Source of the DNA: an uncultured Porphyromonadaceae bacterium
Lineage (GTDB): Bacteria; Bacteroidota; Bacteroidia; Bacteroidales; Muribaculaceae
Assembly (NCBI GenBank): GCA_946414395.1
Contig: CAMKOE010000002.1
Span: 1-64,000, forward strand
Length of the DNA stretch: 64,000 nt
Reading direction: 5' to 3'
A model generated the notes under the pieces. It was not told the origin of the DNA. It made no database searches and saw only the letters and a list, made by a program, of their open reading frames with translations. Positions 7,547 through 27,406 of the stretch are shown here, one piece after another. How positions within the stretch are numbered: the first letter of the stretch is position 1; every line of letters starts with the position of its first letter. The position numbers were made by a program, and so were the translations under genes.

Positions 7547-8594
7547 TGCTTGTGGATTCCTCTTTCTTTTCTCTAGTGAAGAAATTATACTTCTTGAGCC
7601 ACGGGTTCTTGCGCTCGAGCAGCAGCATCAAGGCCATTAACAGCAGCATGGCAATGACGGCAAACACGGGGAATTGCTCGTCGTGCTGCGTGTAGGTAAC
7701 CGCGGCCAGGTCGCTCTTGGCGAGTTTGTCAAGTGTCTCCTGCAGTGTCGAGACGGCATCGGCGGCCGTTCCCGAAATATAGACGCCCTTGCCCGCCTGG
7801 GCTATTTCCTGGGCCATCTTCTCGTTGAGGTAGGTGGTGACGGGGTTGCCGCTATCGTCAGTCAGGTAACCGCCATCCATGGGGATGGGCGCGCCTGTGG
7901 TGGAGCCCACGCCGATGACATCGACCTGGACACCCAACTTGGCGGCCTGCTTGGCGGCATCCACGGCATCGTCCTCAAAGTTCTCGCCGTCGGTGATGAT
8001 GATAATGGCCTTCTGCGACTTCTTGCTCTGGGAGAATCCGTTCATGGCCAGGTTTATGGCGGCGCCGATGGCGGTTCCCTGGGTCGGGGCCATGTTGGTG
8101 CTGATACCGTTCAAGAACAACTTGGCCGAGGCGGCATCGCCCGTCATGGGCATCTGCATGTAGGCATTGCCGGCAAACACGATGAGTCCCACCTTGTTGT
8201 TGTCCAGGCGGTCTATCAACTTCTGCAAGATCATCTTGGCGCGTTGCAGTCGGCTCACGTCCTGTGGATTCTCGGTGCTCGAGGCGTTCATCGAGTTGGA
8301 AACGTCAACGGCGACCATCACCTCGATGCCATGCACCTGGGTCGTCGTCTTGCTGGAACCGGCACGGGGACGTGCCAGCACCACAATGACCATGGTGAGC
8401 AGCAGGAGTTCCAGCACGAGCCTGATCCACGGCTTGTAACGTGAGACCTCGGGCATCAACGGCTCGATGCTGTCACGCTTGCCATAACGCTGCAGGCGGT
8501 TGCGGCGATCGCGGCGGTTCCAGATGAACAGCAGCACCAGTGCCGGCAACAGCAGCAGCAAGTAGAAATATTGCGGATGAGCAAAATTGATCAT
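7503..8594 (-). CDS. batB: BatB: VWA-domain membrane protein
   Basis: A 363-residue protein with N-terminal membrane helices (FYLLLLLPALVLLFIW and the second near residue 60), a von Willebrand A domain with an intact MIDAS motif (DVSNSMNASS, then the conserved T and D in TDGENFEDDAVD), and a C-terminal helix (VFAVIAMLLLMALMLLLE). This is the standard BatA/BatB architecture. It follows batA by 36 nt and overlaps batC. It probably docks metal-dependently to partner Bat proteins at the inner membrane; that is family knowledge, not demonstrated here. Confidence 0.9.
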   Translation of the reverse strand: MINFAHPQYFYLLLLLPALVLLFIWNRRDRRNRLQRYGKRDSIEPLMPEVSRYKPWIRLVLELLLLTMVIVVLARPRAGSSKTTTQVHGIEVMVAVDVSNSMNASSTENPQDVSRLQRAKMILQKLIDRLDNNKVGLIVFAGNAYMQMPMTGDAASAKLFLNGISTNMAPTQGTAIGAAINLAMNGFSQSKKSQKAIIIITDGENFEDDAVDAAKQAAKLGVQVDVIGVGSTTGAPIPMDGGYLTDDSGNPVTTYLNEKMAQEIAQAGKGVYISGTAADAVSTLQETLDKLAKSDLAAVTYTQHDEQFPVFAVIAMLLLMALMLLLERKNPWLKKYNFFTREKKEESTSNETTENKKDDKRQQ

Positions 8595-11511: not shown

Positions 11512-11528
11512 TACTTAGTTTTAAGTTT

Positions 11529-11649
11529 GCAATTATATAGATGCTGGCCCGAACCCTGCGGGACTAATGCCAATTTCACGAATAGTTTCAAATATTATTA
11601 GGGAAATTAGCATTTAAATCAATGATGGGCCAACTGCTATATCAATCCC
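11529..11649 (+). repeat. palindromic interspersed repeat, copy A
   Basis: About 121 bp, the shortest copy. Left end GCAATTATATAG then CTGGCCCGAACCCTGCGGG; right end GATGGGCCAACTGCTATATC followed by AATCCC. The interior TAATGCCAATTTCAC is partly matched by GGAAATTAGCATT. It carries a deletion in the middle relative to copies B and D. It sits in the 184-nt spacer between moxR and the DUF58 gene, inside the bat operon. No open frame. Confidence 0.85.
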
Positions 11650-12922: not shown

Positions 12923-13064
12923 GGGAACGATATAGCAGATGGCCCATCATTGATTTTAATGCCATTTTCGCTAAGAAAACGCATTTCACGAAAAGCATTT
13001 AAAAGTAATTCGTGTACTTGGCATTTGTCCCCGCAGGGTTAGGGACAACTGCTATATCATTGCC
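12923..13064 (-). repeat. palindromic interspersed repeat, copy B
   Basis: 142 bp, inverted relative to copies A, C and D. Plus-strand left end GGGAACGATATAGCAG then ATGGCCCATCATTGATTTTA; right end CCCGCAGGGTTAGGGACAAC then TGCTATATCATTGCC. It has the same length as copy D and matches it along its whole extent when reversed. It directly adjoins the T-tract of the candidate RNA's terminator at 13066. Confidence 0.88.
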
Positions 13065-25437: not shown

Positions 25438-25454
25438 TTTTCCCCTCTCATTAA

Positions 25455-25589
25455 ACTATATAGCAGTTGGCCCGAACCCTGCGGGGCTAATGTCAATTTC
25501 GCGAACTAGTTTTAAATATATTTTTCGTGTAATACGTTTTTCTTAACGAAATTAGCATTAAAACTTTTCAGAGCCAACTGTATTAATAT
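25455..25589 (+). repeat. palindromic interspersed repeat, copy C
   Basis: About 135 bp. Left end ACTATATAGCAGTTGGCCCG then AACCCTGCGGGGCTAATG; right end GAGCCAACTGTATTAATA. This is the most diverged right end of the four. It lies directly against the stem of the amylase terminator that starts at 25590. Confidence 0.85.
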
Positions 25590-25629
25590 AAGCCCTATGT
25601 TTGCACCGTCAATGTCAAACATAGGGCTT
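25590..25629 (-). terminator. terminator of the 25655 amylase gene
   Basis: A perfect 14-bp stem, AAGCCCTATGTTTG with CAAACATAGGGCTT, 25 nt past the stop codon. The T-tract expected on the minus strand is replaced by the AT-rich end of repeat copy C. Confidence 0.8.
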
Positions 25630-27188: not shown

Positions 27189-27330
27189 GGCAATGATATG
27201 GATGTTGGCCCGTACCCTGCGGGGCTAATGCTAATTTCACGAATTAGTTTTTAATATTTTTCGTGAAATACGTTTTCATTAGTGAAATTAGCATTAAAAT
27301 CAATGATGGGCCAACTGCTATATCGTTCCC
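27189..27330 (+). repeat. palindromic interspersed repeat, copy D
   Basis: 142 bp, the best-preserved copy. Left end GGCAATGATATGG then ATGTTGGCCCGTACCCTGC; right end GATGGGCCAACTGCTATATC then GTTCCC. Inside is a perfect 15-bp inverted repeat, TAATGCTAATTTCAC (27226-27240) with GTGAAATTAGCATTA (27282-27296), and an alternative pair TTTCACGA/TCGTGAAA. It ends against the T-tract of the hairpin at 27331. Confidence 0.9.
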
Positions 27331-27366
27331 TTAAAAAAAAGAGCGCGGATGACCAAGAATCCGCGC
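27331..27366 (-). terminator. minus-strand terminator without an obvious gene
   Basis: On the minus strand GCGCGGAT pairs with ATCCGCGC and is followed by TC and eight T. The only genes nearby are pepD (plus) and the amylase, whose promoter lies beyond it, so what it terminates is unclear. Confidence 0.75.
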
Positions 27367-27380
27367 CATCATCGCAATGT

Positions 27381-27406
27381 GACCCTGAGGGACTAATGCG
27401 AATGCC
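27381..27406 (+). repeat. remnant of the palindromic repeat
   Basis: GACCCTGAGGGACTAATGC corresponds to the CCCTGCGGGGCTAATGC block near the left end of copies A to D. The rest of the element is absent. Confidence 0.5.

Follow-up and report, generated by a model that had tools for sequence, protein, structure and literature searches.

The IS1595 family of insertion sequences (PF12762) is characterized by 8-bp target duplications and by ends that start with GG. Several IS families, for example ISL3 and IS256, make 8-bp duplications; Y1/HuH transposition is not known to leave a target duplication. In PMC12561309, IS1595 members are described as making AT-rich 8-bp duplications, and ISApl4, which belongs to the IS1016 subgroup of this family, has a length of 712 bp. 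Among Bacteroidota, the closest described MITE with an internal repeat that we met is BrickBuilt, as presented in the excerpt of PMC4596501. Among the papers listed by a search of titles and abstract starts, with most subscription journals outside its scope, none describes the family that is the subject of this study.

The family was analyzed in the window, which is the whole stretch of 64,000 nucleotides considered here, in the genome from which the window derives, and in genomes of sister species. As the sequence-only reading had proposed, the element family is a MITE. Judged from sequence features, namely the common ends, the duplications of 8 bp, a site found empty, and the existence of transposons whose ends are nearly identical and whose duplications have an equal length, it is very probably a non-autonomous DNA transposon on whose ends an IS1595-family DDE transposase of the sister-species type would act.

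Copies of the element in the window and in its genome

Copies were scored with R1, a covariance model derived from 22 copies. The four copies in the window, the parts of copy D, and a half-unit to the right of it are as follows (flank values give the agreement over 8 bp):

11528..11649, + strand: copy A, a shortened MITE of 122 bp; R1 93.8 bits; flanks TTTAAGTT / TTGAAGTT, 7/8
12923..13064, - strand: copy B, 142 bp, in the opposite orientation to D; R1 140.8 bits; BLAST 85% to D; A-rich flanks, 6/8
25451..25596, + strand: copy C, with decayed ends; R1 105.7 bits; flanks 2/8
27189..27330, + strand: copy D, full length, 142 bp; R1 162.7 bits; flanks 3/8
27189..27211, + strand: left terminal inverted repeat (TIR) of D, GGCAATGATATGGATGTTGGCCC; alignment A2; matches IS1595 transposon ends
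27308..27330, - strand: right TIR of D; alignment A2; matches IS1595 transposon ends
27215..27296, + strand: interior palindromic unit of D, CCCTGCGGGGCTAATGC...TTAGCATTA; inverted repeat I2; relatives without TIRs exist
27382..27399, + strand: half-unit of the interior without transposon ends, previously taken for a remnant; pattern match with 0 mismatches

The four copies that had been noticed from the sequence alone are real, and the family extends far beyond chance: with at most one mismatch, the own genome contains 85 occurrences of the end pattern GATATAGNNGTTGGCCC and 0 of its reversed control, and when two mismatches are allowed the numbers are 126 and 18. The coordinates first given for B and D are exact, and these copies do have the same length, whereas A and C are better placed at the positions listed above. 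The perfect 15-bp inverted repeat reported for D is present as well (27226-27240 with 27282-27296) and sits within a 19-nt pair that is 95% complementary. Common ends do exist in the family, but the 16-mers originally quoted for them are not identical in every copy, the left one being exact in C only and the right one in A and D only. The true ends of the element (GGCAATG...CGTTCCC) lie about 6-7 bp outside those quoted, and the 16-mer quoted as a common block is found unchanged in C and D but with variations in A and B. A perfect 14-bp inverted repeat, AAGCCCTATGTTTG/CAAACATAGGGCTT, with a 12-nt loop (window positions 25590-25629) was also observed between convergent genes where copy C ends on the right; it is possibly a terminator.

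The own assembly, with a completeness of 81%, consists of 78 contigs that add up to 2,634,927 bases (2.63 Mb). At E-values up to 0.1, R1 gave 113 matches in this assembly, which correspond to 81 distinct places since palindromes match the reverse strand too; 45 of these places score at least 100 bits and 64 at least 50 bits. A BLAST search with copy D, for which 40 of 90 candidates were scored, gave at least 53 matches. Intact copies have TIRs of about 23 bp (alignment A2), and the consensus consists of GGCAATGATATAGATGTTGGCCC, about three bases, the interior CCCTGCGGGGCTAATGCGAATT...TTAGCGAAATTAGCATTAAAA and, after a short stretch of variable sequence, the right end, which reads GGGAACGATATAGCAGTTGGCCC as its reverse complement. 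When overlaps under 40 bp were tolerated, 31 of the 32 copies checked were located between ORFs no shorter than 90 aa, and an ORF of 90 aa runs across the single exception. Many of the intergenic repeats of this genome are explained by the element. Under stricter filters, with no more than 31 candidates taken per genome, R1 matches were found in 42 of 101 genomes of the genus; in a set of 61 genomes, they were found in 18 of the 37 own-genus genomes and in 0 of the 24 genomes of other genera. Exact-pattern scans of viral contigs gave 0 matches each for the TIR plus block, the interior unit and the TIR.

Target duplications and an empty site

The flanks of 29 own copies were read for target duplications, 4 of which were excluded because the BLAST match stopped short of the right end. 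Over 8 bp the mean flank identity of the remaining 25 copies was 0.760, compared to a mean of 0.384 and a maximum of 0.505 in 1000 shuffles of the flanks, and 7 of the 25 copies were perfect at this length. At lengths of 4-7 and 9-12 bp, the identity was at most 0.529. Within the window, A and B retain most of the duplicated positions (7/8 and 6/8), and C and D are without a recognisable target duplication since their flanks agree at just 2/8 and 3/8. In the sister genome G002, 2 of 6 duplications are perfect and 5 of 6 agree at 7/8 or better. A second subfamily, in which identical ends surround a different palindrome, was found in G034. This subfamily is young: its 14 copies of 162 bp have a mean pairwise identity of 0.970. 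Perfect duplications flank 11 of the 14 copies (shuffled mean 0.9, maximum 5), 13 of 14 agree at 7/8 or better, and one copy is without; the duplications are 96% AT. One G034 copy (L064) directly abuts the apparent end of another copy, an arrangement that suggests a nested insertion.

For the own copy at C3:45441-45605 (flanks 7/8), the element with its flanks was searched in 101 genomes of the genus. In at least 30 sister genomes the two flank matches are adjacent on one contig and closer together than in the own genome. Seven junctions, picked for short spacing between the flank matches, were aligned (G002, G020, G079, G076, G019, G032, G034), and all seven represent an empty site, in which the conserved flanks meet across a short spacer and the element is absent. 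At the locus of copy D, the flanking genes of G019 and G009 are close together with no element between them, the flanks being too diverged to align the junction.

IS1595-family transposons with nearly identical ends in sister species

A search for PF12762 in 61 genomes of the genus gave matches in 11, and where the transposase was one of the larger ones, the locus turned out to have identical or similar ends on its flanks. Complete transposons with the TIR GG(C/T)AATGATATAGCTGTTGGCCC and perfect 8-bp target-site duplications (TSDs) were found in G017 (two), G036, G023 and G105, the last being assigned through its coordinates. The transposase of these putative partners combines the PF12762 domain (156 bits, cut-off 27; NF033547 194 bits, cut-off 75) with a Zn ribbon (PF12760). 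The ends of more distant versions are diverged (GGCAACTATATAGGGTTTGACCC). The following transposons were delimited:

G017:C90, 2504 bp: putative partner; TSD tcaagaaa
G036:C15, 2573 bp: putative partner; TSD attatttt
G023:C31, 2972 bp: putative partner; TSD ttttttta
G017:C57, 3962 bp: putative partner; TSD tattttta
G121:C15 (L189, assigned through its coordinates), 2424 bp: putative partner; ends GGCAATGATATAGAAGTTGGCCCA / GGCAATGATATAGCAGTTGGCCCA; TSD aaaataaa; transposase in two pieces
G036:C13, 1689 bp: more distant IS1595 transposon with diverged ends; ttaataaa

Genome G121 carries both such a transposon and window-type MITEs, with at least 29 R1 matches counted on both strands and a best score of 167 bits. 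When 101 genomes of the genus were searched with the transposase protein, relatives were detected in 28. Nine of the genomes have a transposase of at least 60% identity that is more than a short remnant (G017, G105, G036, G023, G073, G033, G002, G118, G121), and G006 has a 37-aa remnant. A wider scan of named genomes gave 106 relatives, 80 of which were kept; these come mostly from rumen and gut Bacteroidales MAGs, with a few isolates and other sources. All 80 loci were fetched and 48 of them scanned; we found ends with duplications at 33 and no convincing end pair at 15 (one of them untestable because of a contig edge). The ends of the MITE agree at 42-43 of 46 positions with those of six partners, whose transposases are 94-100% identical, and at 23-38 of 46 positions with those of the other 27 elements, so that the end match tracks transposase identity (Spearman 0.73, n=33, phylogeny ignored). 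R1 matches are present in 5 of 5 genomes with a transposase of at least 94% identity versus 37 of 96 others (Fisher p 0.011, phylogeny ignored). With a 60% cut-off, the corresponding numbers are 7 of 9 versus 35 of 92 (p 0.026, phylogeny ignored, the G006 remnant uncounted); G073 and G033 have a transposase of at least 60% identity yet no R1 match.

The 81%-complete own assembly gave no PF12762 match, and no cognate transposase was seen in it, the best relative being a 24%-identical segment with no TIR pair around it. The sequence-only reading had placed the mobilizing transposase outside the window. This agrees with what we found: the gene lies between nearly identical ends in sister species, and none was seen in the own assembly. 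The search with copy D, the alignment of copies, and the checks for target duplications and for a flanked transposase recovered the family, its TSDs and a likely IS1595 partner. Together with the inverted ends and the empty site in sister species, they bear out the earlier view of the element as a MITE.

Based on these similarities, the IS1595-family transposons of sister species are likely to be the autonomous partner. The DDE transposase encoded by a full transposon would recognize the inverted ends of about 23 bp, move the element, and insert it at AT-rich sites with duplication of 8 bp. A transposase of the sister type would then mobilise the MITEs of the window in trans; it may once have been present in the window's species, or may be missing from the assembly.

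The partner transposons measure about 1.6-4.8 kb and carry varied passenger genes behind the conserved transposase. An opposite-strand ORF after the transposase contains, in 17 of 31 elements, a motif like IRLTESDLHRIVKESV, located either at the start of the ORF or behind a variable N-terminal part, and a literature search for this motif found nothing. No passenger reached the cut-off of Pfam (10 proteins, including one transposase) or of NCBIfam (9 proteins, including three transposases), and searches of 10 passengers each with PADLOC and PHROGs gave weak matches (best E 2.3e-4). The 3962-bp partner of G017 (L094:1356, L149) has an extra internal end copy whose orientation is that of one of the outer ends, which looks like a stepwise addition of passenger cassettes.

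The interior palindrome also occurs without transposon ends

The interior of the element consists of a GC-rich mini-hairpin and an imperfect palindrome. BLAST of copy D against 31 partner loci gave matches in six loci, all of them to end sequences, which were either the transposon's own end or a neighbouring end-like site. An origin of the interior by internal deletion of the partner transposon was rejected because the ends alone match. Since the MITEs and the partner share nothing but these ends, descent from the partner transposon is not established.

The unit CCCTGCGGGGCTAATGCNAATT plus its inverted arm is dispersed in the genus, often without transposon ends. With at most one mismatch, CCCTGCGGGGCTAATGCNAATT has 356 occurrences in 40 of 101 genomes of the genus and 0 among the controls listed. 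One unit per two-ended MITE leads to an expectation of half the end count, and the units exceed this in 29 of the 40 genomes, where ends that have decayed past one mismatch escape the count. In six genomes (G008, G075, G018, G031, G078, G062) the unit is present, but the end pattern finds no match when one mismatch is allowed. In sister genomes, some of the R1 matches span only model positions 27-111. At seven such loci, five are without an end trace, L262 has a left end near its first unit, and L263 has a trace.

We inspected 65 units in 60 stretches from six genomes, a sample that is not representative since several of the genomes were picked for many units relative to ends. Neither end was found, with up to 4 mismatches allowed, for 39 of the units, both ends were found for 14, and one end for 12. 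A looser test on the 39 end-less units detected a left-end trace in 5 (reversed control 1) and a right-end trace in 0, which leaves 34 of the 65 without any end trace. An end-less unit is located at the identical intergenic place in five species (L261, L277, L283, L288, L318).

The fragment at 27381-27406 in the window had been regarded as a remnant of the element. One block is indeed present there, but it corresponds to the interior half-unit ACCCTGAGGGACTAATGC. That it is left over from a whole element is not established, because the unit is dispersed end-less in the genus and the stretch aligns, though diverged, to the orthologous region of G020. The half-unit pattern has 4 matches in the window versus 0.25 expected, and a half-unit of this kind need not be a MITE remnant.

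Other sequence contexts of the interiors were observed in further sister genomes. In G111 (L269-L281), 9 of 14 units share another upstream leader, like CCCGTTAAAATAAGGGAATAATAAAGATGTGCCTCTGAA, and this leader and unit possibly form a different dispersed element with an identical unit; G024 has a further leader. A tandem repeat of 240 bp in G036, together with a further copy (L217:5529-6103, 8390-8568), contains stretches that resemble the G034 MITE interior. The G034 interior is therefore not restricted to MITEs, as two of its stretches match these G036 repeats, which lie outside the transposon there.

Given the end-less units and the second subfamily, in which the ends are identical and the palindrome is different, we regard the elements as IS1595-type MITEs with exchangeable REP-like interiors. 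The end-less units in several unrelated contexts and the two unrelated interiors speak for capture of a palindrome that existed before by transposon ends, and since the interior also occurs without ends, the MITE may owe its origin to a palindrome becoming flanked by IS1595-type ends. At least a part of the end-less units is explained by loss of ends in old MITEs; such loss is seen for the minority of units that keep an end trace. A more speculative proposal, which we consider rather unlikely, is that in this rumen/gut Bacteroidales genus IS1595-type ends were repeatedly placed around host-dispersed hairpins with a functional interior, whose pairing compensatory change across species would have preserved at one locus, the ends being an interchangeable vehicle that spreads the hairpins as mobile regulatory or insulating modules.

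RNA structure and other explanations

The family might instead be a structured RNA, or a transcription-terminator or mRNA-stability hairpin, that is dispersed because it is useful. We consider this improbable. Copy D folds strongly (z -6.9), but the MITE copies show no covariation: a double change was found in 1 of 32 pairs, and 1537 of 5000 shuffles reached the observed arm pairing (21 distinct of 22 copies). Selection on the RNA structure of the MITE copies was rejected for this reason. The end-less units do pair slightly better with their own arm, as 14 of 5000 shuffles reach the observed value (19 distinct arm pairs in 23 rows, with loci selected by eye and two units lacking a right arm dropped). 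At the five-species locus, the outer stem of 18 pairs keeps its pairing while one position changes among T-A, A-T and C-G, but this locus alone is not better than shuffles, 456 of 5000 of which reach its value (4 distinct rows). At the gathering score, Rfam has no match on the element and only a tRNA in the window; three sub-threshold matches occur among six loci. A consensus scan identified no terminator-like site inside D, and a stem-loop is located just outside it, at 27342-27367 on the minus strand.

It is highly improbable that the element is a palindrome of the REP/REPIN type whose movement depends on a REP-associated tyrosine (Y1/HuH) transposase. The element is palindromic and intergenic, its interior unit is dispersed without TIRs, and the own genome has one weak Y1_Tnp match. 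However, the 8-bp duplications of the family are unlike Y1/HuH transposition, the element ends match a DDE transposon, and no unit is present in a 3.2-kb stretch around the Y1 gene. A RAYT/REPIN origin was rejected on finding, in the own genome, this one weak match with no unit beside it. The label REP-like, which had been offered as an alternative to MITE, accordingly misfits the whole element and is partly right for the interior as a dispersed palindrome that also occurs without TIRs. The Y1_Tnp-like gene itself (own C24, L031:942-2105) is flanked by inverted and direct repeats, CTGTGCCATGGCTCAGCCATGGCCATT and TCGCGCGTCAGGCCGGT, and is possibly, with these repeats, a REP-type system of its own. 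Finally, a MITE of another 8-bp-duplicating IS family, with a fortuitous IS1595 match, is an extremely remote prospect: duplications of this length occur in several families and those searched were PF12762 and PF01797, but IS1595 transposons at several independent insertion sites have near-identical 23-bp ends at both of their borders.

Comparison with known systems

The reading as a MITE that an IS1595-type transposase would mobilise points to a likely transposase; for orphan MITEs of metagenome-assembled genomes, such an assignment can seldom be made. With one end type, at least two unrelated interiors, and interiors that occur alone, the modular build makes the family a suitable subject for studying how MITEs may be born without internal deletion of a parent, and it also raises the question whether these MITEs carry a useful hairpin.

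The likeness to the IS1595 family (PF12762, NF033547) consists of the transposase family, the GG-starting ends and the AT-rich 8-bp duplications. The window element differs by having no gene, and the partners, at about 1.6-4.8 kb, differ from ISApl4 with its 712 bp, as given in the excerpt of PMC12561309. With REP/REPIN sequences, the interior unit shares the combination of a short GC hairpin and a conserved tail as well as a dispersed, intergenic location; the differences are that no unit lies beside the Y1 gene of the own genome and that the whole element has DDE-type duplications. BrickBuilt of Porphyromonas gingivalis is likewise a Bacteroidota MITE with a repeat interior and is always intergenic according to the excerpt of PMC4596501; its description there, with a 23-nt tandem minisatellite in place of a palindromic unit, sets it apart. 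Like bacterial MITEs in general, the present element is short and gene-less, has TIRs plus TSDs and the ends of an autonomous element, and occurs in many intergenic copies. Unlike them, it has an interior without a match to the autonomous element, which is itself a dispersed palindrome, and at least two interiors occur with one end type. The family would thus be an ordinary MITE in its mechanism, and what appears to be unusual is its exchangeable palindromic interior.
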